Under the pieces are notes generated by a model. The model saw only the letters and a program-made list of their open reading frames with translations. It searched no databases and was not told where the DNA came from. 64,000 bases of DNA, taken from Maribacter sp. HTCC2170. GTDB lineage: Bacteria > Bacteroidota > Bacteroidia > Flavobacteriales > Flavobacteriaceae. Of the stretch, positions 5,863-39,253 are shown piece by piece. Within the stretch, counting starts at the first letter, position 1; each line of letters opens with the position of its first letter. The stretch spans positions 679,501 through 743,500 of the forward strand of contig NC_014472.1 in assembly GCF_000153165.2 (NCBI RefSeq). Reading direction: 5' to 3'. Position numbers and translations under genes: made by a program.

Positions 5863-5920
5863 AGTGTTCTAACTATTTAAAAATTCCGTACAATAAAAAA
5901 TTCTTGAATTCTTTATTAAG

Positions 5921-5972
5921 ATTCCTGCCTTCGCGGGAATGTGCTTAAGTGTCCTTGAGTGTTACCTCAAGG
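5921..5972. repeat. Two short hairpin-forming inverted repeats
   Basis: Within the divergent 258-bp gap between the TPR gene and ftsE, 5921-5940 (ATTCCTGCCTTCGCGGGAAT) folds into a short GC-containing hairpin. CCTTGAG at 5953-5959 pairs perfectly with CTCAAGG at 5966-5972. The first looks like the small palindromic intergenic repeats found in many copies in flavobacterial genomes (REP-like). Because the flanking genes diverge, a terminator role is unlikely. Confidence 0.4.
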
Positions 5973-6120
5973 AAGACTCAGCAATTACAAAGAATAACGG
6001 CAAATATCGTACCTAAGTATATCCTTTGCTTAAATTGTAACTCTAACAAAGAAAAATATTTTACAAAGGCTGTCTTTGTAATCTGATAGAACTTATTACT
6101 TTTATATCAACAATAAGAAT

Positions 6121-11013: not shown

Positions 11014-11045
11014 AAAAAAGCCCAAACAATTGTTTGGGCTTTTTC
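11014..11045. terminator. Bidirectional terminator between ppgK and typA
   Basis: AAGCCCAAACAATTGTTTGGGCTT is a perfect stem with an A-run on its left and a T-run on its right, so it works as a rho-independent terminator in both directions for the two convergent genes. Confidence 0.9.
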
Positions 11046-11061
11046 ATTATTCTTGATTGCA

Positions 11062-23406: not shown

Positions 23407-23801
23407 GGGGCCGACTGGTTTTGACAGCGAGACCAATGGCAATGTAAGCATGTCGAGCGCTGGTGAATAGCTCGCTAATCTCATTTTCCACACTTTTAAT
23501 TGGCGATAACAATTACGCTCTTGCCGCTTAATCTGAATTATAGTAAGATTAGCCTCGTCTCTACTAGGTAGAGAAGCGAGATGTTCCTGAATAGCCTCTG
23601 TCGACGGCGATTCAATTCGGAGCACCATAAATGTCGATATAAGGCTACTAGCGCTTCGATAGTAGCACCAAAATCTTAAGAAGATAAGTGTATGTTAGGC
23701 CGTTTCCGGTCAGGCATGCAACGAAAACCAATCGGAAACTAAACATGTAGAAGGCATTAACGTTGCTTGTTTGGACGAGGGTTCGACTCCCTCCGGCTCC
23801 A
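23407..23801 (+). ncRNA. ssrA: Transfer-messenger RNA (tmRNA)
   Basis: The 5' end GGGGCCGACTGGTTTTGACAGC and the 3' end GGTTCGACTCCCTCCGGCTCCA pair as a tRNA-like acceptor stem (GGGGCCG with CGGCTCC), with a T-arm GGGTTCGACTCCC-type sequence. The tag reading frame at 23502-23531 gives GDNNYALAA followed by a TAA, close to known Bacteroidota tags. The CCA end is not encoded (ACAA follows). tmRNA with SmpB rescues stalled ribosomes and marks the peptide for proteolysis. The final bases serve as attachment site for the island on its right; ssrA itself stays intact. Confidence 0.95.
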
Positions 23802-23802
23802 C
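23788..23802 (+). repeat. Left attachment site within ssrA 3' end
   Basis: 15-bp core TCCCTCCGGCTCCAC identical to the right copy. Integration recreates the complete tmRNA acceptor end. Confidence 0.88.
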
Positions 23803-24120
23803 AATACTATTAATTAAAAGATTGATTATTAGATATTTAAATGTATTTTTGATATATTTTAGTCAGCTAATAGTCAATTTTTTAATTTAAGGCTCTTCAA
23901 GTGTAGATTTACTCAGGCAAAATCCTAAAACTTTTTGAACATAATTTTAAATATTTTACCCCCACCCCTAAAATAGATTCGATTTTCTTTTTAACCATAT
24001 AGGCCAAAAGGTATATCAGTACCTTTTTTAGAAAATTGAAGACAGCGTAACAGGCTTAAATTTTGATGTAAAATCATGTAACTTTTTGCGATTTCTTATA
24101 TGACGGATTTTTTACCTGTT
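23803..24120. other. Non-coding left end of the island
   Basis: No convincing gene in about 318 bp. TTAGTCAGCT and ATAGTCA at 23859-23876 resemble a similar pair at the right end and may be recombinase or excisionase arm sites. CTAAAACTTTTTGA at 23925-23938 recurs beyond the helicase gene at 27448-27461. No strong hairpin terminator for ssrA is apparent here. Confidence 0.45.
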
Positions 24121-27100
24121 TTATTTTTTCTCTAAACATTTGTTCTTTAAATCTATACAATCAGAATCATCTTTATTTACTGCAAGGGATTTATCTAAGT
24201 AAGAGATTGCTACCCGATAATTTTTAAGATTATAATAAGATTTTGCCAGCCAATAGTTAACATTATTGTTAGCTGGCTTTAAGTTTTTAAATTTCACCCA
24301 ATCATTTATTGCATCGTTATAATTTCTTAAATCGAATAAAACACTACCACGCCAAAAATAAACATAAGCAAAATTATTGTCTAAATATATTGATGTATTA
24401 TAATGTTCAAGGGCATCTTCTAATTGTCCGTTTTGTTCATAAGACCTCCCTAATTCAAAATGAGTATTGCCATTGTCATTTCCAATTTCTAAAGATTTCA
24501 GATAATATTTAATAGCACTTTCAAAGTCCTTTTTTTCTGAAAATTCTAATGCAACATTTTTTAAATCTATTGCTTCAATTTTTCTGGTATAATTACAGTA
24601 ATGACTGTTATTACAAGCATAGAAATACCCAAAACGGCCATTTCGTTCAACTAATTTACCATTGTCGCACCATTCACATTTTAAAGAGGTAATTGGCGGG
24701 AAAGGTTCAATTTCTTCAATAAATTTTGAAGGATATTCATGACTTGATAAGATATGTACTTGTTTTTTTGCTCTTGTTAAAGCAACATAGAACGAACGCC
24801 TTTCCTCTCCATTAGGGAATTGGTCTGCTTTTGATAGTAAAAAGTTTAACAATGGGTCATCTGAAATTTCCGAAGGGAAACCGTATGTCCCTGAATTACC
24901 ATTTAGAATAACAACATAATCTGCTTCCAAACCTTTTGATGCATGAATTGTTAAAAAATTTATAGTATGATTTTGATTACCCTTAAATACATAATCATAT
25001 CTATTTAGTTGCTCATTATACTTCTTAGCTATGTTCTGAGAATCTTCGACTATTCTTCTTTCAAAATCATATCTACCTAATAACAATACCGAAATATTAT
25101 TGCTTTTTTCTTTTTCATTGATTATTTCTAAAGCATTATTTAAGGCTTGATATGCGGATTTACCATTTCGTTCTGCATCTCTATATTTATGAATAGTAAC
25201 AGGGCTATAATTTGATTTCTTATGACTTTTTAATGTCTTTTTTATTTGGTTAGGGTTTTTTAAAATAAAACTACTAGACAAGTCAATCAACTTATTCTCG
25301 AATCTGTAAGTATATTCTATATTAGACCTGCTTGTAGTTCTTTTAAACCCCTTAATAGAAGATGATTTAAAGTACTTTGAAAAACCTGTAAATACACCTA
25401 TATCACTTCCTGCAAAACGATATATTGATTGCCAATCATCACCTACACAAAATAATTTTGTATCAGGTTTTTGGTCTAATAATGATTTAATTAATTTATA
25501 TCTTGCTTGTGAAATATCCTGAAATTCATCTATGATAATATACTTGTATGGTGATGTAAATTGGTTATTTAGAATCGAATTAGTGGCTAAATTTATCATA
25601 TCACTAAAATCAATTTCATTAAGTTCTTTTAAATAGCTTTCATAACTTTTAAATATTGGCTCATATAATTCTAAAAACAATATTGCTCTTTCATTCCCCT
25701 CTTTATTTGCTCTATTTGATAAGTTATTTATTGTTTCATCGTTAGATTTAAACAATATTAAAAAAGTGTTTAATAATTGCGTAAATACATCAATATCTTC
25801 TGTGGTATACTGTTCAATATATTGCCATAATTCATCATCTGACATAGGGTTGAAAACTACTCCTTTGTCTTCAAGTTTAATTTTTAAATTAGAAAGTAAT
25901 ATCCCTTTTTTTTGTTCCCAAGAATAGGTTTCAATTAGTGTCGTACCGTTATCACGATGTTCATTTCTTTTCCACTCAATACCTTCCGTATATTTTTGTT
26001 GCGCTGATTTTTCAGTATCCCCTTTGAACCAAGAAGGGACTTTACCTTTTTCATCAATACCAAAATGTTCCAAATAAATTTTGCGTTCGGGTAAATAAAA
26101 GTCTGGTTTGTATTGGCCGAACTTCTTACTCGCTGTTTTATATTGATAGCTTTCTTCATATCTATATTCAATATTATTTCTGAAAAAGAAGTTGGCTATT
26201 AATACTTCTTCTTGGCTTTTAAATCTTTCCCTATATTTTATTTCAACACCATTTGAAGTTGTTTTATTTATTGTTTTATAGCCTTCGAGCTTTTGTTCTT
26301 TTAAGTAATTATTATGTTCAGCATCGGATTCAAAGTCGTGAATGTCTTTATAAGGTTTTAAGTGATATGCTAAAAAGTCAATTAGCTTATTTAAATATTG
26401 GCTATTAGCCTTTGCATTCGATATAAATGAAGTTATTAATTGCAGTATTTCTTTTTGAGATAAACCAAAGATTGATGGTTTTTGGTTTGATGATTCAGCA
26501 AGTATATCTAATCCTAATTTGTGAAATGTTTTTACGGGTAATGAAATATCCATTTTCTTTTGGATTCTTTCCGCCATTTCATCTGCTGATTTACGTGTAA
26601 ATGAAATTAGTAATATGCTTTCAGGTTTAACTTTTAATCTTTGAGTGAGATACTTTACTTTACCCGCAATAGTAGTTGTTTTACCAGAGCCAGCACCTGC
26701 AATAATTAAGTTGTTATCTTCATTTACTATAATTGCATTTCGCTGTTGTTTATCAAGAGAATGCCCTTCAACATCACTTAACAAATCATTGGCTTTCTCT
26801 AGTTCATTTTTAACAAATTTGTTGTTTCTTTCTTTAATTAATTCTTTAATCTTTGAATAATCAAGTAAAAAACTACTTATGAAATTTATTTCATTCTCAA
26901 AGTCTGGTAAATGTTTATACTCAACATTACTAACTTCATAAAATAAATCTTCATAATTTAATTTAAAATCAAATATATCATAGTTTGAAATGTACTTTAT
27001 TTCATTCCTAAATCTTTTAAAATCTTCATTGAAATACTCAATTTTTAAAAGAATTTTTTGAAGACTTTTTTTATAACTTTCGAGTATACGTAATCTTTGT

Positions 27101-27195
27101 TCCTCTTCAAACCTTTTTTTCTTTTTAACATTTAAATAAGCTGAAACAGAAATAGTAGTTAAAGCAATACCACCTAAAGCGACGTACACTAACAT
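24121..27195 (-). CDS. Membrane-anchored HelD/UvrD-type helicase with zinc ribbon and TPRs
   Basis: 1024 residues with several modules. Residues 2-22 form a transmembrane helix followed by KKKK. Residues 30-140 are helical. Walker A is AGAGSGKTT at 165-173. An insertion at about 345-385 (YKPDFYLPERKIYLEHFG) resembles the nuclease-like insert of DNA helicase IV (HelD). Later come DEFQD at 556-560, GDDWQSIYRFAG, TIHASKGLEADYVVI and RSFYVALTRAKK. Residues 840-868 hold a topoisomerase-type zinc ribbon (CEWC…CNNSHYC). Residues 880-1020 hold about four TPR units. It should move 3'-5' on ssDNA near the membrane. It is on the strand opposite the restriction operon. Membrane anchor and TPRs are unusual for HelD and suggest a defence role; this is inference. 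Confidence 0.85.
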   Translation of the reverse strand: MLVYVALGGIALTTISVSAYLNVKKKKRFEEEQRLRILESYKKSLQKILLKIEYFNEDFKRFRNEIKYISNYDIFDFKLNYEDLFYEVSNVEYKHLPDFENEINFISSFLLDYSKIKELIKERNNKFVKNELEKANDLLSDVEGHSLDKQQRNAIIVNEDNNLIIAGAGSGKTTTIAGKVKYLTQRLKVKPESILLISFTRKSADEMAERIQKKMDISLPVKTFHKLGLDILAESSNQKPSIFGLSQKEILQLITSFISNAKANSQYLNKLIDFLAYHLKPYKDIHDFESDAEHNNYLKEQKLEGYKTINKTTSNGVEIKYRERFKSQEEVLIANFFFRNNIEYRYEESYQYKTASKKFGQYKPDFYLPERKIYLEHFGIDEKGKVPSWFKGDTEKSAQQKYTEGIEWKRNEHRDNGTTLIETYSWEQKKGILLSNLKIKLEDKGVVFNPMSDDELWQYIEQYTTEDIDVFTQLLNTFLILFKSNDETINNLSNRANKEGNERAILFLELYEPIFKSYESYLKELNEIDFSDMINLATNSILNNQFTSPYKYIIIDEFQDISQARYKLIKSLLDQKPDTKLFCVGDDWQSIYRFAGSDIGVFTGFSKYFKSSSIKGFKRTTSRSNIEYTYRFENKLIDLSSSFILKNPNQIKKTLKSHKKSNYSPVTIHKYRDAERNGKSAYQALNNALEIINEKEKSNNISVLLLGRYDFERRIVEDSQNIAKKYNEQLNRYDYVFKGNQNHTINFLTIHASKGLEADYVVILNGNSGTYGFPSEISDDPLLNFLLSKADQFPNGEERRSFYVALTRAKKQVHILSSHEYPSKFIEEIEPFPPITSLKCEWCDNGKLVERNGRFGYFYACNNSHYCNYTRKIEAIDLKNVALEFSEKKDFESAIKYYLKSLEIGNDNGNTHFELGRSYEQNGQLEDALEHYNTSIYLDNNFAYVYFWRGSVLFDLRNYNDAINDWVKFKNLKPANNNVNYWLAKSYYNLKNYRVAISYLDKSLAVNKDDSDCIDLKNKCLEKK

Positions 27196-27892
27196 TCAGA
27201 TATAATTTAATGATTATTCAAACTTTAATTTTGGAAATGCTACAATAAATATAGAACTATGATAACATTTGGTCAACGATTTTAATTAATTTACTTAGGC
27301 ATACGTTACATAAATTCTATAACACAAACATAATTAAACTATTTCAGGTGCAAATGGAAAACAATATTACGCCGAAACAGAAATTAAGGATTCAATTTAT
27401 TTTGAAATAAGTGATAATCTTGGTGTAAATTTTAGGTTTTCTAAAAGCTAAAACTTTTTGAGGTTAATTATTTGTTTTCGAAACCCCCCGTCTTAAAATA
27501 AATCGTTTTCCTTTTGGCATATCACGGCCTACAACAATACATGTCCTTTACGGGTTTAAGAGAGAGGCTAAAAAATAACTAATTAGTTTTAATCATAACT
27601 TGTAACTTCCATAAAACCAGTTTATTAAAGTCTTCAAATCAATTTATAGTCTATACGGATAGTTATAGATTAATGAATAAAATTGCAATACGTTCTCTTT
27701 TTTAGCATGACAGGTTTCATACCTAATTTTATCCCTTACATCTTTAAATTTAGCTAAAATCTTGTAGGACTTTACTTCTTATAAATTGTATTTTTGTTAG
27801 GTGTCTCACCGAGCTATAATTATTTATTCCCACAATAGTTTCATTCTACAATTATAGCTGAGAAGATTAGTGCTGAACAAAATAAAGATTGA
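27196..27892. other. 697-bp intergenic region with decayed coding remnant and leader
   Basis: Separates the divergent helicase and restriction operons. A 38-codon open stretch at 27338-27451 (…GKQYYAETEIKDSIYFEISD…) has no start codon and looks like a gene fragment. CTAAAACTTTTTGA (27448) plus a C-run and TTAAAATAAATCG downstream echo 23925-24000 on the far side of the helicase gene. The right part contains the promoter and inverted repeat described separately. Confidence 0.45.
27789..27859 (+). promoter_or_regulatory. Promoter and inverted repeat in leader of the defence operon
   Basis: TATTTTTG at 27789-27796 fits the -7 consensus TAnnTTTG. Downstream, AGCTATAATT (27812-27821) and AATTATAGCT (27850-27859) are perfect 10-bp inverted arms separated by 28 bp, ending 33 bp before the first start codon. 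The arms could be an operator or an RNA hairpin that limits translation. Confidence 0.5.
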
Positions 27893-29473
27893 ATGAATAT
27901 GGAAAAAGACTATTTCCTTTTAAAGGATAAAATAAAGGAAATTGAATCAAAATTTTTTATCAATAACGGTTGGCTCAAAATTTATGAGAATGATTCAAAA
28001 GGCCTAGACGATTCGTCTGGAATATATTGTTGTTTGGTTTCTAATAATCAATTCGAGTTGTATAATAAAGATTATAAATGGCCACTTTCAATGGGAAGAG
28101 AAGGAAAACCATCCGTCTATGGGGATAATGCTTATAAAACATACGATGAAGAAGGTTTAGAACCCTTTCTTTTTTACAAGCAGTTTTCCCTTACTGAATC
28201 CTCTGTTAAGTACATAGATATTTCCGAGGAATTTATTCTTTATTTCAGGCTTTATGAAAAAGGTAGTGATAAACAAAACAGAACTTTTTTTTACGTCAAT
28301 GATTATGGAGAATTAGATGAAGTCATCACAATTGAACCACATTTAATTAAAATACAAATCAAATACTTAAAGGAATATATTACAATGAGGGATATGAACT
28401 TTGTTGTGTGTTATGATTTTATGAGACTTGTCTCAAATATACCATCAGAATGGAATATTAAATACGGGGAAAAATTGATAAATGACAATGAATTTATCTA
28501 TAGTCATCTTATTCGAAATGTATCTGATAAAATACAAAGTTGGATAATGGGTAAAGTTTTAATAAAACCAAACAAAGTAAAAAAAACCCATTTTGATTTA
28601 GGCGAATCAAAGAATGAAGAATTTATAATTGGCTATGATGATGAAGGAGAATTACTTTATGAAAATTGTGGAAAAACGGATGGAAATCATTTTAAAGCAA
28701 CCTACTTCAAAAAGGAAGTGCTAAACAAATACTATAACGAACCGTATAAATATGAAGTTGATGGATTTGGAGTGAGTTCTAAGTTCTTTTCATTAAAGAT
28801 TGATAACAATGTTGGTGATTATGTTCCTGTTTTTCTTACGAATTTAAGAACACTCCCTCATAAAGAACAGCTTCATTGGAAGCAATATAATATTCCACCA
28901 AAAGAGAACATGAATATTAGTCGTACTTATTATCGTACAATGATAGATGGACAATGGGCGGAGCAACCAGAAACTGCGGATTTATTCTTCAAATCAAAAT
29001 ATAAAGAGTTCAATAAAAAGTGGGAAAAGAAATTTGGATGGAATCTCTATAAACCATTATCTGAATTGGATAAATATTTATTTACCTCTTTACATAAAAT
29101 AACGTCTAATAATATTAAAGCCTTTTGTGAACAAACACTAACCATTGTCAAATTAACAATAGACAGGTTAAATGAAAAAGAATTAGCCAAGGGACTAAAT
29201 TTAGATTCGAATGTCAGGGGAATTTTAAAATTTGAGAAATTTTTAGAATCCAAAGAAATGAAAATTCCGGATATGTTTGAATTTTTAAGAAATTTACAAA
29301 ATTTAAGGTCTGGTTTGATTGCTCATAGCTTTAGTGAATCAAATTCGGATTGTAAAAAAGCGCTTAAATATTTTAAAATAGAAGATGACAATTACATGGA
29401 AGTATTAGAAGAAATATTCATAAAATCTGTTCATACCTTTAATACACTAGAAGAGTATTTCAAATTGAAATAA
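27893..29473 (+). CDS. Uncharacterised protein with C-terminal HEPN-like motif
   Basis: 526 residues, no signal peptide or membrane helix. I do not recognise the N-terminal 400 residues, which are mixed alpha/beta and rich in charged and aromatic residues. The last 120 are helical and contain NLRSGLIAHSF, where R472 and H478 match the R-x(4-6)-H pattern of HEPN RNases, preceded by a long helix (FCEQTLTIVKLTIDRLNEKE). It is first in a compact unit with AbiH (start 27 bp downstream), HsdMS and HsdR. An inducible RNA-cleaving effector is plausible but not shown. Confidence 0.6.
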   Translation: MNMEKDYFLLKDKIKEIESKFFINNGWLKIYENDSKGLDDSSGIYCCLVSNNQFELYNKDYKWPLSMGREGKPSVYGDNAYKTYDEEGLEPFLFYKQFSLTESSVKYIDISEEFILYFRLYEKGSDKQNRTFFYVNDYGELDEVITIEPHLIKIQIKYLKEYITMRDMNFVVCYDFMRLVSNIPSEWNIKYGEKLINDNEFIYSHLIRNVSDKIQSWIMGKVLIKPNKVKKTHFDLGESKNEEFIIGYDDEGELLYENCGKTDGNHFKATYFKKEVLNKYYNEPYKYEVDGFGVSSKFFSLKIDNNVGDYVPVFLTNLRTLPHKEQLHWKQYNIPPKENMNISRTYYRTMIDGQWAEQPETADLFFKSKYKEFNKKWEKKFGWNLYKPLSELDKYLFTSLHKITSNNIKAFCEQTLTIVKLTIDRLNEKELAKGLNLDSNVRGILKFEKFLESKEMKIPDMFEFLRNLQNLRSGLIAHSFSESNSDCKKALKYFKIEDDNYMEVLEEIFIKSVHTFNTLEEYFKLK

Positions 29474-29499
29474 CATAGCCCTATTGATGATAACCGGCA

Positions 29500-30561
29500 T
29501 TGATTAATGAAAAAGCCAAATTGACTACAAATCTAAAATCCAAAACGAAAAATAGTAAGACCCTTTACATTATTGGTAATGGATTTGACTTGCATCACGG
29601 ACTAAAAACCGGTTATAATGATTTTGGTGAATATCTTTTAGACAACGATAAAGAGTTATTTGAATTGTTGGAAAAGTATATTGCTTTCACCATTAAAGGT
29701 GATACTCCAACAGAGGATGATAATCTATGGGGTGATTTTGAAGAAAATTTGGCCCATTTGGATATAGACGGCATCATTGATGATAACAATGTATACCTAC
29801 CGGATTGGTCGAGTGACGATTTTCGAGCGGGAGATTTGCATGCTTTTCCTAATACCATGATGGAAATTTGTGGAAAACTGACTTCTGATTTAATTCAAAA
29901 TTTTGAAGATTTCATCCTTAGAACTGTTTATAAAGAATCTGTTTCAGAAAGATTGATAGAACTAAATAAAAATGCCAAATATTTAAGTTTCAATTACACC
30001 AATACCTTAGAAAGATTATACGATATACCAAAAGAAAAAATCTTATACATACATAATAGTGCTTTCCACGGCTCAGGTGATATTATACTAGGTCATGGAA
30101 TTAAACCAGAAAATTTTAGAAATGACCCAACTCCACCAGATGGTTTGACAGAGGAAGAGATGGATAGGTGGGTGGAAGAGCAGAATGATAACTATGATTA
30201 TTCTTTTGATGAAGGAATGGAACAGTTATACCGATATTTTACTGACACCTATAAACCTACTGATACTATAATAAAAGCCAATGAAGATTTTTTTAAGAAA
30301 CTAGCTGACATTGAACAGATTTATATTTTTGGGCTTTCATTTTCAAGCGTTGATTTGCCTTATTTAATAGAGATAGTAAAGAATCTTAGCGTTAAGGTAA
30401 AATGGACTGTTTCCTATCGGTCGGCAAATAAAGTGGCAGAAGTTAAAAAGACCTTGGAAGGAATAGGGATTAAGGATATTAATTTTATTAAGCTAGATGA
30501 GTTGTTAATAGATAATAAACAACTTAAATTAGACCTCTTTCCAAATGAAAAAACAGCATAA
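29500..30561 (+). CDS. abiH: Abortive-infection protein AbiH
   Basis: 353 residues. The family hallmark LYIIGNGFDLHHGL lies near residue 22, with the conserved LSFNYTNTLERLY, IHNSAFHGSGDIILGHG and a late IFGLSFSSVDLPYL (order and spacing as in the AbiH family). The first start codon is TTG at 29500; no in-frame ATG precedes the core, so the exact start is uncertain. AbiH was first found as a lactococcal phage-resistance gene, with an unknown mechanism. Only 3 bp separate its stop from hsdMS, which argues for co-expression with the restriction system. Confidence 0.86.
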   Translation: MINEKAKLTTNLKSKTKNSKTLYIIGNGFDLHHGLKTGYNDFGEYLLDNDKELFELLEKYIAFTIKGDTPTEDDNLWGDFEENLAHLDIDGIIDDNNVYLPDWSSDDFRAGDLHAFPNTMMEICGKLTSDLIQNFEDFILRTVYKESVSERLIELNKNAKYLSFNYTNTLERLYDIPKEKILYIHNSAFHGSGDIILGHGIKPENFRNDPTPPDGLTEEEMDRWVEEQNDNYDYSFDEGMEQLYRYFTDTYKPTDTIIKANEDFFKKLADIEQIYIFGLSFSSVDLPYLIEIVKNLSVKVKWTVSYRSANKVAEVKKTLEGIGIKDINFIKLDELLIDNKQLKLDLFPNEKTA

Positions 30562-30564
30562 AAT

Positions 30565-32688
30565 ATGAGTTTCGAACAAACTTTTAAAAATATAGATGAC
30601 CTGCTTTACAAAGATTCAGGAGCAGATAGCGAATTAGATTACATAGGACAAACCTCTTGGGTTATGTTCTTGCGTTATTTAGACGAACTGGAACAAGACA
30701 AAGCAGACGAAGCGGAATTAAAAGGCGAAGAATACAAATTCATTTTAGATGAAGAATACCGTTGGCCAATTTGGGCAATGCCAAAAGATGATGACGGAAA
30801 ATTAGACTACCACAAGGCTATGACAGGACCAGATTTGGTTCAGTTTGTAGACAGAAAGTTATTTCCTTACTTGGCAGAGTTCAAACAAAAAGCTGACAAC
30901 CCAAAAACTATTGAATACAAGATTGGCGAAATATTCTCTGAACTGAAAAACAAAATTAAAAGCGGTTATAACTTACGAGAGATTTTAGAATATGCAGACG
31001 AACTTCCTTTTCGAGCTTCTACTGATAAACATGAGTTAAGCCACTTGTACGAAAGTAAGATTAAAAACATGGGTAATGCAGGTCGTAATGGTGGACAATA
31101 CTACACACCAAGACCGCTTATTCGTGCCATGATTAATGTGATTGACCCACAAATTGGAGAAAAAATTTATGATGGTGCAGCAGGTTCTTGTGGTTTCTTA
31201 TGCGAAACATACGAATACATGTATGAGCGCATGGAAAAAACAACCGGCAATCTTAAAACTTTACAAGAGGAAACACTTTATGGAAAAGAGAAAAAGAACT
31301 TGGCGTATGTTATTGGGGTCATGAACATGATTCTTCACGGCATTGAAGCCCCAAACATCATTCATACCAATACGCTGGGCGAAAATGTTCGTGATATACA
31401 AGAGAAGAATCGTTACCATGTTATTCTAGCGAATCCGCCATTTGGTGGTAAAGAAAGAAAAGAAGTACAACAAAATTTTGACATAAAAACGGGAGAAACT
31501 GCATCTTTGTTTCTACAGCATTTTATTAAAAGTTTAAAAACAGGTGGACGAGCGGCAATAGTAATAAAAGATTCTTTTTTATCTAATAATACTGAAAAAG
31601 CATACTCAACACTTCGGAAAAATCTACTTGGAAGTTGCGAGTTAAATTGTATTCTCGATTTGCCAAGAGGTACATTTTATGGAGCAGGAGTCAAAACTGT
31701 GGTTTTATTTTTTACAAAAGGGGCTCCAACTAAGAAAATATGGTACTATAAACTTGACCCTAAAAGAACTTTAGGGAAAACAAAACCTCTTAATGATAAT
31801 GATTTTAAAGATTTTCTTGAAAAAATAAGGAATAAAGAAATTGGTAAAAACTCTTGGATAATAAAAGCCCATGAAATAGATGAGAACACATGCAATTTAA
31901 CTCCAATAAATCCAAATGAGGAAAAGTTAGATAAGATATTAAGCCCTAATACGATTATTTCTGCTGTAAGCAAGTACTCCATGGATTTTAATTCAGAACT
32001 TCAAAAAATTAAAACCAATATCGACAGTTATTTGTCAGAAGTTAATCTAATGCTAAAAAATGAGGGAGGAATATGGAAAGAGGAACGTTTCGGCGATGTT
32101 TGTGAATTTGTAAGGGGTCCTTTTGGCGGTAGTTTAAAAAAATCAATTTTTGTTGAAAAGGGAATTGCAGTTTATGAACAACAACATGCAATAAATAACC
32201 AATTTGAACATGTAAGATATTACATAAATCAAGATAAGTTCAATGAAATGAAAAGATTTGAACTTAAATCAGGTGACTTAATAATGAGTTGTTCGGGCAC
32301 AATGGGTAAGGTTGCTATTGTCCCTAAATCATTTGAAAAAGGAATAATAAATCAGGCTTTATTAAAACTATCACCTAATCCTTCAATTGATGTAAATTTT
32401 TTGAAGTATTGGATGGAAAGTAAAGTATTCAAACTAAAAATTGAAGAACTATCAATGGGTGCAGCAATTAAGAATGTAGCTTCTGTGAAAATTCTAAAAG
32501 AAATAATGGTACCTATTCCTCCAATTGAAATACAAAAGAGAATTATTCAAAGAATCGATTCTTTAGTTAATTCTTTTGAAGATGCAATACTCATAACGCG
32601 TAATCAGCTTAATCATTTGGAAGACCTCGGAGAGTCTCTACTACAGGAAACTTTTGAAGCAAGTATTGAGGAATTAGAATCTGCTTAA
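30565..32688 (+). CDS. hsdM: Type I modification methyltransferase fused to a half specificity subunit
   Basis: 707 residues. Residues 1-150 match the HsdM N-terminal helical domain. The adenine-methylase core has motif I (DGAAGSCGF, 203-211) and the catalytic NPPFG (290-294). From about residue 505 an HsdS-like part begins: one target-recognition domain (FGDVCEFVRGPFGGS … LKYWMESKVFKLKIEEL) and one long helical spacer (MVPIPPIEIQKRIIQRIDS). A normal HsdS has two such halves, so this fusion probably dimerises and recognises a symmetric bipartite site. It methylates adenine to protect host DNA. It lies 2 bp before hsdR. Confidence 0.9.
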   Translation: MSFEQTFKNIDDLLYKDSGADSELDYIGQTSWVMFLRYLDELEQDKADEAELKGEEYKFILDEEYRWPIWAMPKDDDGKLDYHKAMTGPDLVQFVDRKLFPYLAEFKQKADNPKTIEYKIGEIFSELKNKIKSGYNLREILEYADELPFRASTDKHELSHLYESKIKNMGNAGRNGGQYYTPRPLIRAMINVIDPQIGEKIYDGAAGSCGFLCETYEYMYERMEKTTGNLKTLQEETLYGKEKKNLAYVIGVMNMILHGIEAPNIIHTNTLGENVRDIQEKNRYHVILANPPFGGKERKEVQQNFDIKTGETASLFLQHFIKSLKTGGRAAIVIKDSFLSNNTEKAYSTLRKNLLGSCELNCILDLPRGTFYGAGVKTVVLFFTKGAPTKKIWYYKLDPKRTLGKTKPLNDNDFKDFLEKIRNKEIGKNSWIIKAHEIDENTCNLTPINPNEEKLDKILSPNTIISAVSKYSMDFNSELQKIKTNIDSYLSEVNLMLKNEGGIWKEERFGDVCEFVRGPFGGSLKKSIFVEKGIAVYEQQHAINNQFEHVRYYINQDKFNEMKRFELKSGDLIMSCSGTMGKVAIVPKSFEKGIINQALLKLSPNPSIDVNFLKYWMESKVFKLKIEELSMGAAIKNVASVKILKEIMVPIPPIEIQKRIIQRIDSLVNSFEDAILITRNQLNHLEDLGESLLQETFEASIEELESA

Positions 32689-32690
32689 TA

Positions 32691-35138
32691 ATGAATGAGG
32701 CTCAAACCAAACACGATTTAATAGAGCCCGCTTTGCGTGAAGCAGGTTGGGGCATTGTTAAAGGTAGTCGATTGCGTTTGGAGTTTCCTATTACCAAAGG
32801 TCGTTTAATTGGTCAAAACAGACGTTCTAAACCACTTTTTGCTGATTATGTTTTAGAATATAAAAACAGAAGAATAGGTATTGTAGAAGCTAAAAAAAGA
32901 GATTTATATTATACAGATGGTGTTGGTCAAGCCAAAGACTACGCAGAACGTCTAAATATTCGATTTACGTACGCCACCAACGGTTTACAAATCTATGGTA
33001 TAGATTTAGAAGAATGTACAGAAGGTGATGTATCTAAATACCCAACACCTGACGAGCTTTGGGAAATGACGTACCCAACGCCTAAAGAAGATTACAAAGT
33101 TGAGATTGCCAATTGGAAAGAACGCTTATTTGCAATTCCTTTCGAAGATAGAGGAGGCACTTGGCAACCAAGATATTATCAACAAAATGCAATCGCTAAA
33201 GTATTAGAAGCTATTTCAGAGAAGAAGGACAGAATCTTGCTGACTTTAGCAACAGGAACAGGAAAAACTGCAATTGCCTTTCAAATTGCTTGGAAATTAT
33301 TTCATGCCAAATGGAATTTAAGGCGAGATGCATCAAGAAGTCCAAGAATCTTATTCTTAGCAGACAGAAATATTTTAGCAGACCAAGCATTTAATTCATT
33401 CAATGCTTTTGATACCATTGATGAAAACATAAAGGTTCGAATCCGACCGTCGGAAATAAAAAAGAAAGGTACGGTACCTACAAATGGGAGTGTTTTCTTT
33501 ACCATTTTTCAAACTTTTATGACGGATGCACAAAAGAATGTTGACCTAGAAGAAGTTTCTGAGGATGTAATACCTGAAATAAAAAAACCAGAAGATTTTA
33601 ATTTCGGACAATACCCACCAGATTTTTTCGACTTGATAGTTATTGACGAGTGTCATCGTGGAGGTGGTAATGATGAAAGTTCTTGGAGAGCCATAATGGA
33701 TTATTTTTCGCCTGCTGTACAATTAGGTTTAACTGCAACGCCAAAACGAGATGTAAACGGAGATACCTACAATTACTTTGGTGACCCTGTCTATACTTAT
33801 AAGTTAAAAGATGGTATTAATGATGGTTTCTTAACCCCTTTTAAGGTAAAAGAAATTCAAACCAATTATGATGAATACACAGTAACAGAAGATGATACTA
33901 TAATTTTCGGTGAAGCAGAGGTAGGCGATACTTTTACCTATAGGGATTATGGTCGTAAAATTATAATTCAACAGGTTGAGGAATATAGAGTTAAAAAATT
34001 CTTGGAAATCATTAATCAAAACCAAAAGTCTTTGGTTTTCTGTGCAACTCAAAAGCACGCTGCATTAATAAGAGATTTAATAAATCAAAATACAGATAGT
34101 AAGAGTACAAATTATTGTCATCGTGTAACGGCAGATGATGGCAAAATGGGCGAACTGCACCTAAGAGATTTTCAAGACAATGAAAAAAGTATTCCTACTA
34201 TATTAACAACTTCACAAAAGTTGAGTACGGGTGTAGATGCACCAGAAATTAGAAACATTGTTTTACTTCGTCCTGTAGATTCCATGGTAGAGTTTAAGCA
34301 AATAGTTGGTCGTGGCACAAGGTTATTTGATAGTAAAGATTATTTCACCTTGTTCGATTTTGTGAATGCTCATAATCATTTTCAAGACCCAGAATGGGAC
34401 GGCGAACCTATACCGCCAGAACCATCAACGGGAGGCGGAACACCAAGAGTTTGTAATATTTGCGGAGAAACACCTTGTGTTTGCGAAAGACCGGAGCCTG
34501 AACCCTGTCCTGAATGTGATAATATTCCTTGTGTTTGCGAAACACCACCGAGAAGAATGATTAAAGTTAAACTCTCGGATAACAAAGTGAGAGAAATAGA
34601 TTCTATGGTCAAGACTTCATTTTGGAGTCCATCAGGAAAACCAATTTCCTCACAAGAATTTATTGAGCAATTGTTTGGGGATTTACCTTCATTCTTTGCA
34701 AGTGAAAATGAATTACGAAAAATTTGGAGTTTGCCAAGCACACGCAAAAAATTGCTAAACGAGCTAAGCGAAAAAGGATACACAAACTCGCAATTGGAAG
34801 ATTTGAGAAATTTAATTCACGGTGAAGAAAGTGACCTTTTTGATGTGTTAAGCTACGTAGCGTATCACAAAGACCTTGTTCCTCGATTAGAAAGAGCAGG
34901 TAAAGCTAAAATCCAGATGAATGACTACAATCCAAAGCAACAGGAGTTTTTGAACTTTGTATTAGAGCAATATGTCAAAGAAGGAGTTGATGAACTGGAT
35001 GACGCCAAACTTCCAAATTTATTAGAATTGAAGTATCAGGCTATCGCTGACGCCAAAAATGAACTAGGTGCAATTAAGTCAATAAGAGATACCTTTATTG
35101 GGTTTCAGGAGTTGTTGTATCGAGATAGGGCAATGTGA
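32691..35138 (+). CDS. hsdR: Type I restriction endonuclease subunit R (EcoEI-type) with Cys-rich insert
   Basis: 815 residues. The N-terminal nuclease has the PD-(D/E)xK-like residues D52, E66 and K68 (ADYVLEY … GIVEAKK). The motor has Walker A ATGTGKT (about 187-193), DECH in VIDECHRGG, TATP and a late VGRGTR motif. The C-terminal part matches the shorter EcoEI-type R subunits. Residues 586-622 hold two tandem CxxC…PCVCE units, likely a zinc-binding insert. It translocates DNA and cuts unmethylated sites with the HsdMS partner. Confidence 0.92.
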   Translation: MNEAQTKHDLIEPALREAGWGIVKGSRLRLEFPITKGRLIGQNRRSKPLFADYVLEYKNRRIGIVEAKKRDLYYTDGVGQAKDYAERLNIRFTYATNGLQIYGIDLEECTEGDVSKYPTPDELWEMTYPTPKEDYKVEIANWKERLFAIPFEDRGGTWQPRYYQQNAIAKVLEAISEKKDRILLTLATGTGKTAIAFQIAWKLFHAKWNLRRDASRSPRILFLADRNILADQAFNSFNAFDTIDENIKVRIRPSEIKKKGTVPTNGSVFFTIFQTFMTDAQKNVDLEEVSEDVIPEIKKPEDFNFGQYPPDFFDLIVIDECHRGGGNDESSWRAIMDYFSPAVQLGLTATPKRDVNGDTYNYFGDPVYTYKLKDGINDGFLTPFKVKEIQTNYDEYTVTEDDTIIFGEAEVGDTFTYRDYGRKIIIQQVEEYRVKKFLEIINQNQKSLVFCATQKHAALIRDLINQNTDSKSTNYCHRVTADDGKMGELHLRDFQDNEKSIPTILTTSQKLSTGVDAPEIRNIVLLRPVDSMVEFKQIVGRGTRLFDSKDYFTLFDFVNAHNHFQDPEWDGEPIPPEPSTGGGTPRVCNICGETPCVCERPEPEPCPECDNIPCVCETPPRRMIKVKLSDNKVREIDSMVKTSFWSPSGKPISSQEFIEQLFGDLPSFFASENELRKIWSLPSTRKKLLNELSEKGYTNSQLEDLRNLIHGEESDLFDVLSYVAYHKDLVPRLERAGKAKIQMNDYNPKQQEFLNFVLEQYVKEGVDELDDAKLPNLLELKYQAIADAKNELGAIKSIRDTFIGFQELLYRDRAM

Positions 35139-35210
35139 GAATGGAGGATGAATTAATCAACTAGTAATCAATTGCAATTTATTGAATATCAGGTTTTAGC
35201 AGAACATCTG

Positions 35211-36608
35211 TTACATTAGGGTAATTAGTAGTTTATTGTTTATTGTAATTCCCTTATCTTCTGTCCAGTTCTCCAATTCTATAGTTGGTTTTAATCTCGT
35301 AATATCGAATAAATATTTTTCCATTTTATTTTGTAATAGTGTTTTCATATCGTCTGTTGTAACTAATGAATCATGTATGCTCAACAATGGCATTTCAGGA
35401 TATTTGGCCGCAATTTTCTTCGCTACACAATCCAAAAGGCAGTATGCCTCAACATGACTTAATAATTGATAAAATTCTACATCTTCATCTTCTTTTATTC
35501 GTTGAATAATAGCATAAATAGAGGGGAAAGCAGCAGCAAAGGCCTTGGTCTCCGCCGAACTGTACCCTTTTTTACAGTTAAATACGGTCAGTACCACTTC
35601 TTTCATACAGTCTCTTTCAGACTCGTATAATTTCTTGGTTATAAACTCTTTCATGCCCTTGCCATTAATTACTATTCTAAAAGGTTTTCCTGTTTCTAAA
35701 TCATATTGAATTGGAATTATTTTAATAAGTACATTGTATAAATCCTCGTTGATTACATCACAAGCAAAGGCACGGGCTTCATCAATATCAACTAGAGCGC
35801 ACAACTCTTGAATCAAATTCATTCCTAGAATTTTGGTTGCACCTATTCTTTCCAAATAATCTATGTCCCGAAAACAAAGACCTTTTAAAATGGCGCATAA
35901 AAAATAAGGCTGAGATGTTTTTAAATCAAGGCCAACTAAACCTTTATCTTGATATCTTAAATGCTTTCTAAGGCTTCTGTTTGTCCTTGTGAGGGTTGTG
36001 TGAAGTCGGTTGTCCGTTTCAGGTTTTATACTGTAAGTCCATGATTTATCTTCCCATTCTGAAATAAGCTGCATGCTATGAATGTATTTCTGATGGTCAT
36101 CGTTATTCCGGTAGTAGCTTATCTCGTTGTGGGCATCCTCTCGATTGATACTTAGGTTTTCATCGAACCATCTAACCAAATGTGGGCGTTGCTCTCTGCA
36201 AAAATCCATTTGATGGGATTTAGAACTATCTCGTCCCTTTTGGTCGAATTTTTCTAAAACGGATTTATTCCATATTCTAAATGGCACAATTTCACCATGG
36301 AAGTATTGTTCAGGAATCCGATATGCAGCACATTTGCCATGAAAGGATGAATGGTTTCTAACTTTTTCAATGAACCTATTTTTAATAAGAAACCTCATGT
36401 AATCAGCAGCTTTCCAATCAACCCCTTTCAACTTTTGGGAATCTAAATTGACCCGCATAAAGTCAATTTCATTACCCCGATATGAGGTTGGCATGCTATT
36501 GATTAGGCTTACAAAATAAACAGCCTTGTCCAATTCCAATTTGTTCTGTAGTCCAATACTCTCTTTAAGGTCTTCAAGTAATGGCTTTTGAATTATCACT
36601 GATTTCAT
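35211..36608 (-). CDS. Protein with DNA polymerase I / T7 RNA polymerase superfamily motifs
   Basis: About 465 residues from ATG at 36608 (a GTG six bases upstream is possible). Motifs consistent with a single-subunit polymerase palm and fingers appear in the right order, numbered from that GTG: RLHTTLTR (R203), motif A LVGLDLKTSQPYFL (D230, S234), motif B ERDCMKEVVLTVFN (R334, K338), FAAAFPSIYAI, and motif C LLSIHDSLVTT (H414, D415). Motif B and C spacing recalls T7 RNA polymerase (RSVTK…, VHDSF). There is no exonuclease domain and it is shorter than known enzymes. Its start overlaps the excisionase-like gene upstream, so both form one operon. A role in element replication or priming is inference. 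Confidence 0.55.
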   Translation of the reverse strand: MKSVIIQKPLLEDLKESIGLQNKLELDKAVYFVSLINSMPTSYRGNEIDFMRVNLDSQKLKGVDWKAADYMRFLIKNRFIEKVRNHSSFHGKCAAYRIPEQYFHGEIVPFRIWNKSVLEKFDQKGRDSSKSHQMDFCREQRPHLVRWFDENLSINREDAHNEISYYRNNDDHQKYIHSMQLISEWEDKSWTYSIKPETDNRLHTTLTRTNRSLRKHLRYQDKGLVGLDLKTSQPYFLCAILKGLCFRDIDYLERIGATKILGMNLIQELCALVDIDEARAFACDVINEDLYNVLIKIIPIQYDLETGKPFRIVINGKGMKEFITKKLYESERDCMKEVVLTVFNCKKGYSSAETKAFAAAFPSIYAIIQRIKEDEDVEFYQLLSHVEAYCLLDCVAKKIAAKYPEMPLLSIHDSLVTTDDMKTLLQNKMEKYLFDITRLKPTIELENWTEDKGITINNKLLITLM

Positions 36609-36613
36609 AATCA

Positions 36614-36895
36614 CTACTGATTAAGCCTGATAATGGCAGCTTCAACTTCTTCTCTCTTATAATAGACCCTATTGCCAATACCATAAGACGTCAGTACTCC
36701 CTTTTTCGTCCAAATATAAAGTGTGCTAAGGTCGATTTGAAGCATTTTGGCTACATCTGCTCTACTTAAATAATCTATTGGGGCATTTGTTGAAAAGCCT
36801 TTTTTTAACTCCTCTAGCTGCTTGCTTAGCCCCTTTAAAATTTCATGTTTTAACTCCTCCGGAGTAACTTGTAAAAATTGAATTGTTTTGCTCAT
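36614..36895 (-). CDS. Excisionase-like helix-turn-helix DNA-binding protein
   Basis: 93 residues. The C-terminal half is an MerR/AlpA-type winged HTH (LSRADVAKMLQIDLSTLYIWTKKGVLTSYGIGNRVYYKREEVEAAI), the fold used by recombination directionality factors. The N-terminal 40 residues form a helix. It is followed by the polymerase-motif gene in overlap, and preceded by four iteron-like repeats in its promoter region. It may control both excision and that operon. Not specific enough to name. Confidence 0.8.
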   Translation of the reverse strand: MSKTIQFLQVTPEELKHEILKGLSKQLEELKKGFSTNAPIDYLSRADVAKMLQIDLSTLYIWTKKGVLTSYGIGNRVYYKREEVEAAIIRLNQ

Positions 36896-36955
36896 AATAT
36901 GTCTTTTTTATAATTATTAGAGCTAAACTATAGAATCAAAAAAAGGTGGTAATCC

Positions 36956-37052
36956 AAGGGGAATAACCTTGTTTTTAAGGTATTGCGATAGCTTGAATCA
37001 GTGATTTCAAAGGGGAATTAAAGGGGAATAAAATGAGTCTAAAGGGGAATTA
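36956..37052. repeat. Four iteron-like direct repeats AAGGGGAATWA
   Basis: AAGGGGAATW occurs at 36956, 37010, 37021 and 37042, all in the same orientation, three of them 11 and 21 bp apart (one and two helical turns). They sit upstream of the excisionase-like / polymerase-motif operon and reach into the stop codon of the neighbouring gene. This is typical of replication iterons or of an operator array for a DNA-binding protein. Confidence 0.6.
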
Positions 37053-37754
37053 GGTAAGGAGGTGATTAAATTTGTTCAAATCAAGAGACCTTTTATTAAA
37101 TTTACTCGGTTTGGATTGGTCACCTACGTTCAAATTATAGAAATCCTCGAAGAAGTGTATGTGATTAGTTAGCGATATGTTCTTATTCAAAATACTATTG
37201 CTATTCAATACTCTGCAAAAATCTACTAATTCATTTTTTTTGCCCATCCAAAAATAACCACTATTATCAAATCCAACTAATCCATATTCTACGGCTTTGG
37301 AATTAACTTCTTTGAATTTCATCAGTTTGTCTTGGAAGATATGTTTTTCTAATTTTTTATTCTTAATTGTTGTTAGAGCTTCAATCTCGGTTTGAGGAAA
37401 GTAATCTCCATAGTATTGAGCCATATATGTTAGTGTATCTCTATAGCTTTTAGAATATCTTTCAATAATGATTCTTTGTGCATCATTGCCCTTGAGAGAT
37501 TTTAGTGACTTAGCAGACCTATTTATATTGCTGACATAAGACTTAACCATTAGTTTGACTTTGAAATCAGTGGTTGACCTATGTGTCCTAATAGTTAAGT
37601 CCTTCAAAAAAAACTTCCTTTGATTTTCTATAACCTCATCTAAATGCGCAAGGTATTCTTCTCGATTTTGATAAAATTCATCAGTTAATTCATTGTCAAT
37701 TTCTATTAATGAATTTTTCATGTAGTGATATATCACAAGTCTTTTAATTTTCAT
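37050..37754 (-). CDS. Uncharacterised element protein, possibly RteC-like
   Basis: 234 residues, mostly helical and basic (YIRTHRSTTDFKVKL, NINRSAKSLKSLKG). The C-terminal region YFWMGKKNELVDFCRVLNSN … FEDFYNLN recalls the C-terminal domain of RteC-type proteins, which regulate excision of Bacteroides conjugative transposons. The match is weak and by eye only. It lies 24 bp downstream of the integrase on the same strand, so it is probably co-transcribed with it. Confidence 0.5.
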   Translation of the reverse strand: MKIKRLVIYHYMKNSLIEIDNELTDEFYQNREEYLAHLDEVIENQRKFFLKDLTIRTHRSTTDFKVKLMVKSYVSNINRSAKSLKSLKGNDAQRIIIERYSKSYRDTLTYMAQYYGDYFPQTEIEALTTIKNKKLEKHIFQDKLMKFKEVNSKAVEYGLVGFDNSGYFWMGKKNELVDFCRVLNSNSILNKNISLTNHIHFFEDFYNLNVGDQSKPSKFNKRSLDLNKFNHLLT

Positions 37755-37778
37755 ATGAGATTATTCCTTAATTCATCT

Positions 37779-39041
37779 TCAATTCTTAGTTTCAATTTTA
37801 GCCCAAATTCTAGCTAATTGCAAACTATAATCTATAGGCTTTTTACCAATATATTCTAAAAACTGTCTTTCAGTACTATGTGCTGTTATATTCATCAATA
37901 AAGGTGTTGGATATTCTGGGTCGCCATAAAAATTCGTTGCAAAAGACCTTCTACAAATATGAGAAGATACAAGTTTAAATTTTTCATAAAGTCCTTTCTT
38001 CGTTCGCTCAGTCTCTTTGTCATAAAGATTACCCTCAACCAATTCGTTTATCTGGGCAGATTCACACAATTTTTTTAAGTACCTATTAAAAAGGGTTTTA
38101 CTACTCTCCAAGTTATTAGTATGTAACGGAGGAAACTGGCTATTTCTTTTATCTAAGATTTTCCTTACTTCTGGATGAATAGGAATTTGAACAATCTTAC
38201 CTGTCTTTTTTTGATTTAAGACTATAAAGTTAAAACCTTGAATTTTCTGAAACATACTTGTTGATATTCTCAATAAATCAGATACTCTTTGACCGGTATA
38301 GCAACCAATAATAAGCCAATCTCTGGCTATCAAAAGTTTTTCTTCTTCCAATTTGGTTTGCTTAATTTTTTCTAGGTCATCAAACGAAAGTGTAACTGTT
38401 GGTGACTCTTCTGTAAACCCCATAAAAAATGGTAACTGCTTACTTACTGTAATACCATTTTTATCTGCATCAATACAAATAGTTTTTACAAATTTCAAAT
38501 AGCGGCCAATAGTATTCATAGAAAGTTTGTCCACATCTGATAGATAGTCAATAAATCTCTCACGAAAGGCTAAATCAATATCCTGAACTAAATACTTTTT
38601 TCCTGTATGTTTTTCATAATTAGATAACTTGTTAACTATCGTATGGTATTTTTTAACTGTTGAAAGAGACTTTTGACTGCTTCTTATTTTACTAAGAAAG
38701 AATGTACAATACTCGGCTAGAAATTCCTTAGAATCCTCTTTACTATGGCCGTGAAACTTATCAATAATAGTTTCTAACCAATCACCATTTATAGAGTGTG
38801 GGGGAACTTTGGTGTCGTTTAGACTTTCATAAACAAAGGCCTCTAATTCTTTTAACTTAACACTTAAATTCTTGTTCTTAGCTTCATTCTGCTTTGGATA
38901 GCCAGTAGCCAAGCTCCAACTATTTGGATTTATAAAAACTCCGGTCTTTCTTTTTATACTTTTGCTTTTCCCAAGAGAAAGTCTCATGTAGATTGGGACG
39001 TTATTCGCAGAGCTTTGTAATAAATATTTAATTGTAGCCAT
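37779..39041 (-). CDS. int: Tyrosine recombinase / integrase of the ssrA element
   Basis: 420 residues with the layout of Bacteroidota tyrosine recombinases: an N-terminal arm-binding region, a SAM-like core-binding domain (about 105-205), and a catalytic domain. Catalytic residues appear in order: R in YTGQRVSDLLRIS, K in NQKKTGKIV, H-x-x-R in SSHICRRSFAT, H in TAHSTERQFL and the Tyr in EYIGK. It sits 198 bp from the right attachment site and reads away from it. It should catalyse recombination between the ssrA 3' end and the element's own att site. Confidence 0.92.
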   Translation of the reverse strand: MATIKYLLQSSANNVPIYMRLSLGKSKSIKRKTGVFINPNSWSLATGYPKQNEAKNKNLSVKLKELEAFVYESLNDTKVPPHSINGDWLETIIDKFHGHSKEDSKEFLAEYCTFFLSKIRSSQKSLSTVKKYHTIVNKLSNYEKHTGKKYLVQDIDLAFRERFIDYLSDVDKLSMNTIGRYLKFVKTICIDADKNGITVSKQLPFFMGFTEESPTVTLSFDDLEKIKQTKLEEEKLLIARDWLIIGCYTGQRVSDLLRISTSMFQKIQGFNFIVLNQKKTGKIVQIPIHPEVRKILDKRNSQFPPLHTNNLESSKTLFNRYLKKLCESAQINELVEGNLYDKETERTKKGLYEKFKLVSSHICRRSFATNFYGDPEYPTPLLMNITAHSTERQFLEYIGKKPIDYSLQLARIWAKIETKN

Positions 39042-39238
39042 GATAATTAAATAACTACAAATGTATAATAATATTACATTTTAGTCATTTATTAGTCAGC
39101 TTATTTGCAACTAGATGCTACTTATATCAATCCAGTTCAATTACAAAAGAACCGAAATTCAATGGTTTTGATTGTATTTAAATAAATATATGTAGATTTC
39201 ATTAGAGTTATTTCGATAGACACATTGTACTAATGTAG
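39042..39238. other. Non-coding right end of the island with arm-type repeat candidates
   Basis: TTAGTCA at 39081 and TTAGTCAGC at 39092 (11 bp apart, same orientation) match the TTAGTCAGCT/ATAGTCA pair at the left end. They lie in the promoter region of the integrase gene and are good candidates for integrase or excisionase arm sites. Confidence 0.5.
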
Positions 39239-39253
39239 TCCCTCCGGCTCCAC
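39239..39253 (+). repeat. Right attachment site
   Basis: TCCCTCCGGCTCCAC, identical to the ssrA 3' end copy. The flank to its left (AATGTAG) no longer encodes a tRNA-like T-arm, so this is the displaced copy and ssrA is the intact one. Confidence 0.88.

Follow-up and report, generated by a model that had tools for sequence, protein, structure and literature searches.

What does a small polymerase do in an island of defence genes? The window analysed here (64,000 nucleotides of Maribacter sp. HTCC2170, contig NC_014472.1, positions 679,501 to 743,500) encodes a protein that a preliminary description, made from the letters alone, had proposed to be a compact enzyme, akin to PolA and T7 RNA polymerase, that belongs to a mobile element. 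That proposal is supported by the predicted fold, by an in-register profile alignment, and by a bounded island with integrase and HTH genes. The span originally given for the gene, 35211-36608, has to be amended: no strand was stated, the plus-strand translation is full of stops, and the ORF lies on the minus strand (Table 1). The end coordinate is explained by an in-frame ATG two codons after the GTG start, at 36606-36608; the residue numbering agrees with the GTG, not with the ATG. The claimed order of motifs is borne out on the minus-strand translation: RLHTTLTR, motif A, motif B, FP, motif C. The genome carries a single copy of the gene, intact.

Table 1. The integrated element, its genes and the parts of the polymerase, in window coordinates
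Feature	Position	Strand	Basis or remark
TV-Pol-like A-family polymerase gene	35211..36614	minus	ORF, GTG start, 467 aa; alternative ATG at 36608
N-terminal domain, codons 1-118	36261..36614	minus	separate AF2 model, pLDDT 85.7
RLHTTLTR, residues 203-210	35985..36008	minus	invariant R203 at beta-hairpin ahead of palm; T209
Motif A LDLKTSQPYFL, residues 229-239	35898..35930	minus	D230, S234, Q235
Motif B RDCMKEVVLTVFN, residues 334-346	35577..35615	minus	R334, K338
FP between motifs B and C	residues 363-364	minus	translation
Motif C LLSIHDSLVTT, residues 410-420	35355..35387	minus	H414, D415
Whole integrated element, 15,451 bp	23803..39253		15-bp direct repeats at ends; flanks contiguous in G777
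tmRNA gene (ssrA), integration target	23407..23802	plus	ARAGORN
Left att repeat TCCCTCCGGCTCCAC, tmRNA 3' end	23788..23802	plus	direct repeat
Right att repeat TCCCTCCGGCTCCAC	39239..39253	plus	direct repeat
Tyrosine integrase	37779..39041	minus	Pfam Phage_int_SAM_5 7.3e-11, Phage_integrase 1.6e-7
234-aa protein, variable slot between integrase and HTH gene	37050..37754	minus	no Pfam family over cut-off, no PADLOC match
93-aa HTH_17 protein, excisionase/MerR-like	36614..36895	minus	Pfam HTH_17 1.5e-10, PHROG excisionase 8.8e-7
Four exact AAGGGGAATWA copies, upstream of HTH-polymerase pair	36956..37052		starts 54, 11, 21 bp apart
Cargo: UvrD-like helicase, zinc ribbon and TPRs	24121..27195	minus	Pfam, PADLOC
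Cargo: 526-aa protein beside AbiH	27893..29473	plus	no Pfam or PADLOC match
Cargo: AbiH	29500..30561	plus	Pfam 1.6e-71, PADLOC 8e-28
Cargo: HsdM fused to one HsdS-type specificity domain	30565..32688	plus	Pfam, PADLOC
Cargo: type I restriction HsdR	32691..35138	plus	Pfam, PADLOC

The limits of the element come from a genome of the same genus (G777), in which the two island flanks map to neighbouring bases of contig C120, 2005 and 2004; because the flanks adjoin there, the element is taken to be what separates them here. The integrase, 234-aa, HTH_17 and polymerase genes all run in one direction, and the stop of the HTH gene overlaps the polymerase start (TAGTG). No homologue of the 234-aa protein was found among the relatives' loci. 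The AAGGGGAATWA repeats, of which no exact copy occurs elsewhere in the window, are possible iterons or an operator; the spacings of their starts approximate whole helical turns. Iterons are not general in the relatives: at least three clustered exact 9-mers were seen in 1 of 56 loci, versus 4 of 1120 shuffles, and just two loci other than the window's own, L104 and L116, contain more than one AAGGGGAAT.

As to the cargo, the HsdM-S fusion followed by HsdR makes up a two-gene type I restriction system. The UvrD-like protein has a split helicase domain, a topoisomerase-type zinc ribbon and C-terminal TPRs; its best PADLOC matches are GajB and a DRT-associated helicase. The 526-aa protein is possibly a new defence gene. 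Pfam recognised no D5-type helicase in the element, and no SSB gene was recognised beside the polymerase, whose neighbour is the HTH_17 gene.

Within the family Flavobacteriaceae the protein was found in 31 of 397 genomes searched and, by profile search, in 15 of 395 genomes of the phylum; the own genome is counted in both sets, which partly overlap. Direct scans of genome contigs and viral contigs with the single protein were unproductive. Two alignments were made. The first (A1) comprises the window protein and 23 relatives, 18-43% identical to it, drawn from 23 of 30 loci (omitted: L001, the own copy; L003, L009, L014, L022 and L027, split or interrupted by stops; L017, because L016 is its twin) and picked by whole-protein similarity, not by motif. 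The second (A3) draws on 59 of 69 loci and, with the window protein, gives a 60-member family; L118, L097, L116, L107, L114, L105, L119, L127 and L129 were left out as broken, partial or twins, and L126 failed the E 1e-40 cut. The A3 loci were retrieved via RLH and SQP patterns, so the conservation of those stretches is partly selected there; A1 is free of such selection. Set A5 holds 44 of the 60 listed rows.

Nine of the 467 columns are invariant across the 24 rows of A1: R203, T209, D230, S234, Y293, K338, E389, H414 and D415. Six of the seven residues named beforehand are among them, and R334, the remaining one, is found in 22 of the 24 rows; the hypergeometric chance of at least six of seven falling in invariant columns is 4e-11, with columns treated as independent. 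T209, Y293 and E389 come in addition to those seven. The A-family signature (D230, K338, H414 and D415, with R334 nearly so) and the hairpin Arg ahead of motif A thus run through the whole alignment, the pattern expected if the active site is of the PolA/T7 kind. A chance match to the motifs was considered and rejected, given the nine invariant columns and a confident fold. Between residues 240 and 333, where the alignment is gappy, no acidic column of the fingers is kept in at least 18 of 24 rows.

The family escapes the usual models. None from Pfam, NCBIfam or PADLOC matches more than one of the 60 members, and none from PADLOC matches any. The window protein itself has one chance-like sub-threshold match each in Pfam (0.025) and PHROG (0.011), and sequence searches of PDB chains gave nothing, even by profile at E up to 10. 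Assignment to a known family was therefore rejected, as searches of Pfam, PHROG, NCBIfam, PADLOC and PDB sequences offered none; so was a plain Pol I reading, for want of a Pfam match and because the motif A gate is different.

An AlphaFold2 model built from the 60 sequences has pLDDT 91.5 and pTM 0.89. In a Foldseek search of the PDB (best 50 of 744 matches up to E 10), every one of the 24 chains with an E-value of 1e-3 or below is an A-family DNA polymerase: the apicoplast polymerase scores best (1e-4), and Klenow, Bst, Taq, M. smegmatis and T7 gene 5 enzymes are also found; TM-scores to the top chains are low, 0.2-0.4. T7 RNA polymerase (1h38) comes just behind, at E 1.4e-3. Among viral models the best match is an unnamed 409-aa protein (2.5e-17, TM 0.68), followed by a 403-aa marine-phage 'putative DNA polymerase I' (5.4e-16, TM 0.62); further matches are a polymerase from a Barba phage (1e-6) and, at 5.2e-4, the replication protein of the Zamilon virophage. 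In the model R203 lies in a hairpin (strands 194-196 and 204-206) preceding the strand that bears D230; R334 and K338 stand at the start of helix 333-346; and H414/D415 occupy the turn joining strands 411-413 and 416-420. A fold comparison had been suggested at the outset as one check on the polymerase assignment, and what it predicts is an A-family palm and fingers.

The protein had also been said to lack a promoter-recognition domain, and that part of the description is judged unsafe. Modelled separately, residues 1-118 form an N-terminal strand and helix, then helix, strand, helix, helix, strand, strand and a last strand, a winged-helix order. Foldseek found no PDB match for this domain up to E 0.001, the best being a Fur protein at 0.081; many of the best 50 matches (Fur, CodY, MarR types, RepE54, TubR) are winged-helix proteins. 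On the model, residues 1-118 look like a separate, winged-helix-like domain.

How closely the family is related to other polymerases was assessed by profile-profile alignment (hhalign, each pair in two directions). Against divPolA2 the E-values are 3.2e-11 and 2.8e-12, over a core of 170-178 columns; against an LMM01-type TV-Pol set (six rows, four of them about 90% identical), 4e-4 and 5.6e-5; against PolA, 0.0054 and 0.026; and against T7-type RNA polymerases, 0.028 and 0.025. When the family was the query, decoys made by reversal scored 0.26-0.82; in other pairings they went down to 0.048, so that the PolA and RNA polymerase scores by themselves barely exceed chance. PolA and the T7-type RNA polymerases are known kin, and the two score just 0.081 and 0.18 against each other. 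Motifs B and C align in register with PolA. By these alignments kinship with divPolA2 appears firm and kinship with TV-Pols is suggestive, while that with PolA and the RNA polymerases is read from the predicted fold and motif register.

A more direct link to divPolA2 runs through PHROG 4756. Ten of the 60 members match it with E-values no higher than 0.01 (best 5.1e-11); the window protein is not one of them. The divPolA2 representative AUR84708 belongs to this PHROG (1.8e-91), as does a protein of a Barba phage (3e-64). Evidence to the contrary comes from a plain profile search with A3, in which AUR84708 was absent from the hits up to E 10 and gene 30 of Microcystis phage LMM01 scored 0.049, no better than an unrelated ORF (0.05). 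Gene 30 adjoins two transposase genes; because it does so in a phage named by Iyer et al., we infer that it is the published TV-Pol. Some isolates of Vibrio phage ICP1 (L172; H77-H79, H90-H92) have a divPolA2-type gene of full length, whose product shares 41.7% identity with AUR84708; other ICP1 isolates have only a weaker, half-length match (26%).

The family is not confined to islands. One relative is on a Hymenobacter plasmid with its own Rep and ParA genes, and others are on 10 viral contigs. Searched against 50,697 phage records, the copy on LR756502 (642 kb) matches six, its own included, all metagenomic and 595-735 kb long; LR756501 and LR756503 are identical in length and match position. 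Rows from these very large phages align with the 60-row family at 2e-46 and 3.5e-53, and in a 65-sequence tree the four copies fetched form one clade with IMG/VR contig L128 (support 1.0). Ten proteins neighbour the very-large-phage copies; four have PHROG matches, phosphatase- and peptidase-like ones included, and none is a replication gene.

In the islands themselves the surroundings of the gene have a recurrent and a changing part. There are 59 loci from genome contigs, 50 of them with at least 3.5 kb of upstream sequence. In 31 of these 50 an integrase is encoded on the same strand no more than 6 kb upstream, and in 35 an HTH gene no more than 2.5 kb upstream. Such an integrase is missing in 19; in addition to the 31, eight loci have one elsewhere nearby. 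The slot between integrase and HTH gene is filled by varied proteins, in clusters of at most three (sizes run from about 220 to 380 aa, and those at L062:8800-9618, L065:8882-9634 and L109:8021-8950 have an NPYPRIF-like motif in common). The downstream genes vary and include restriction enzymes and UvrD-type helicases matching GajB models. Of 155 listed downstream ORFs, 71 (set A4) were scanned for cargo: the commonest Pfam family covers 7 of the 71, no replicative (D5-type) helicase is among the 25 listed of 92 Pfam families, and PADLOC yields a list of families rather than a clean count. Recurrence with the integrase and HTH genes amid changing cargo argues that the polymerase serves the life cycle of the element itself, within a core that would also comprise the integrase and the excisionase-like HTH protein. 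Two loci are unusual: Rufibacter latericius (L116) has several polymerase copies or fragments in 12 kb (1081-2160, 4925-6595, 11019-12034), as if islands stood in tandem, and a 4.9-kb contig labelled Methanosarcinaceae (L089), with integrase, HTH and polymerase genes, is probably a misbinned Bacteroidota contig.

The reading we favour is that the protein is a minimal A-family primase-polymerase of TV-Pol type, which replicates the excised element; we give this a probability of about 0.6. The layout would be an N-terminal DNA-binding-like domain, thumb, palm and fingers, with the exonuclease absent. That is, after excision the enzyme would bind element DNA, perhaps near the operon leader; it would begin strands de novo on a single-stranded template, as a primase; the D230/D415 two-metal site would extend them; and host helicase and Pol III would complete replication, a share assigned to the host because no linked replicative helicase was found. 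By replicating itself the element would reach a higher copy number for transfer, which may take place in phage particles. The reading draws on the TV-Pol prediction and on the precedent of CcPol-MP, an island A-family enzyme that primes. Several findings weigh against it. No D5-type helicase or SSB gene was recognised beside this polymerase, and it is on such partners that the case for TV-Pol and CcPol as primases is built. The TV-Pol link is weak, the fingers keep no acidic column, 19 of the 50 loci are without the upstream integrase, PDB chains are not matched by sequence, and the TM-scores are low.

A bolder form would unite initiator, primase and polymerase in one protein: the winged-helix domain would find an origin (AAGGGGAATWA), synthesis would start with ribonucleotides, the dNTP gate being gone, and no SSB or helicase of the element would be needed; the scheme would be common to Bacteroidota islands and very large phages, the latter as possible carriers. 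We regard this as improbable.

The active site bears on what is polymerized. Four residues after the motif A Asp, the family has Ser in 24 of 24 A1 rows, and at D+5 it has Gln in 20, His in 2, Val in 1 and Ile in 1. The LMM01-type set has Cys or Ser and then His or Gln; PolA has Ile or Leu and then Glu (14/14); the RNA polymerases have Ser or Asn and then Gly (6/6); and divPolA2 has Glu at D+5 in three of five rows. The residue after the HD of motif C is Ser in 18 of 24 family rows (else Cys or Ala), Glu in 14 of 14 PolA sequences, and Ser in 3 of 6 RNA polymerases. The dNTP-gate Glu is thus missing from every A1 row. According to Bebel et al., this Glu is one of two residues that E. coli Pol I uses against ribonucleotides, and it is retained in CcPol (PMC7581432). 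Its absence predicts a relaxed choice of sugar: going by sequence, the enzyme should accept ribonucleotides better than PolA or CcPol does.

The same residues weigh on two further readings. One holds that the protein is a DNA polymerase purely for primer extension, in repair or in second-strand fill-in after transfer. Palm and fingers do resemble those of A-family DNA polymerases, CcPol without MP merely extends primers (PMC10061031), and no SSB-like partner was recognised here; the missing D+5 Glu, invariant in PolA, speaks against it, and the host has its own PolA, to which a second gap filler would add little. This seems unlikely. The other makes the protein a single-subunit RNA polymerase that transcribes element genes from dedicated promoters, as T7 RNA polymerase does for its phage. 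The HDS of motif C and the Ser at D+4 are T7-like, where PolA has HDE and I/L; the N-terminal domain may, on its model, read DNA; the 1h38 match points the same way, as does a weak match of 1 of 60 members to PHROG 2051, 'RNA polymerase' (0.0023). Yutin et al. raised the same option for divPolA2 (PMC11348598). Yet D+5 is mostly Gln rather than the Gly of all six RNA polymerases, no Pfam match to the T7-type polymerase (PF00940) or its N-terminal domain was obtained, and the profile score to RNA polymerases is no better than that to PolA; we think this reading quite unlikely. Very unlikely is a defence effector that synthesizes nucleic acid on infection, like the DRT reverse transcriptases: the gene does sit among defence genes, and Rice 2023 raised the option for PolA-SSB primases (PMC10061031), but it recurs with integrase and HTH genes without any fixed cargo system, PADLOC models leave all 60 members unmatched, and relatives are also known from phages of very large size and from a plasmid.

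A polymerase family missed by Pfam, NCBIfam and PADLOC can now be named, tied by profile to divPolA2 and weakly to TV-Pol. The family spans Bacteroidota islands and phages of 595-735 kb. And a small, intact, well-bounded island makes the old prediction of TV-Pol primase-polymerases testable with one protein.

The claim that few such proteins are described does not stand: TV-Pols (PMC2579912), the CcPol-MP primase (PMC7581432) and PolA-SSB pairs (PMC10061031) were already known. The literature searched, with subscription papers mostly outside it, gave no account of this polymerase family in Flavobacteriia islands or very large phages. With Pol I (PF00476) and T7-type RNA polymerase (PF00940) the window protein has in common the predicted fold and the order of motifs; it differs in having no Pfam match and weak profile scores (0.005-0.03), and it is too short for an exonuclease or for the T7 N-terminal part.

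As an island, the nearest counterparts are the tmRNA islands of Pseudomonas carried by a jumbo phage: these too show tmRNA insertion, direct repeats, a tyrosine integrase, alpA in the core, phage-defence cargo and no recognised transfer genes (PMC12595487). They belong to another phylum, and the words polymerase and primase are absent from the main text of that paper. A tie between the window's polymerase family and carriage by jumbo phage, which has been shown for a Pseudomonas tmRNA island, is no more than suggestive (PMC12595487).

As an enzyme, the protein can be set beside CcPol-MP of SCCmec and the PolA-SSB pairs. These are likewise A-family polymerases on chromosomal islands with a site-specific recombinase and often restriction genes; some lie in ssrA, and element replication has been proposed for them (PMC7581432, PMC10061031). 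CcPol-MP has been shown biochemically to prime de novo using the polymerase site (PMC7581432). The differences are that no SSB-like partner or helicase operon was recognised here, that CcPol retains dNTP-gating E174 and F225 (PMC7581432), and that the recombinase is a tyrosine enzyme here and mostly a large serine recombinase there. The divPolA2 proteins (PHROG 4756) share a homologous core, a length of about 430 aa, the lack of an exonuclease and an N-terminal domain of their own (PMC11348598). They occur, however, in Vibrio, Rheinheimera, Aeromonas and a few other phages; in barbaviruses they sit alongside a regular PolB (PMC11348598); Glu is at D+5 in the majority of rows; and the alignment with the window family spans the core only.

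TV-Pols were predicted by Iyer, Abhiman and Aravind in 2008 to be primase-polymerases of mobile elements (PMC2579912). The shared features are many: an exonuclease-free A-family polymerase of 400-600 residues on mobile elements; a hairpin with an invariant Arg, two palm Asp and RxxxK in the fingers; integrase and restriction-modification neighbours (PMC2579912); and, in the LMM01-type set, S/C then Q/H in motif A. The window protein differs in that no D5-type helicase, part of one TV-Pol architecture, is fused to it or recognised nearby; the conserved fingers Asp of TV-Pols is not kept; and its N-terminal domain is predicted to be mixed alpha/beta, theirs all-helical (PMC2579912). The published list includes bacteroidetes: Polaribacter dokdonensis, Psychroflexus torquis, a Flavobacteriales bacterium and Cytophaga hutchinsonii (PMC2579912). 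Because these TV-Pols were listed with integrase and restriction neighbours, the window polymerase is placed with this known kind, and its own group may already have been seen by Iyer et al.; that it works like a TV-Pol is surer than that it is one.
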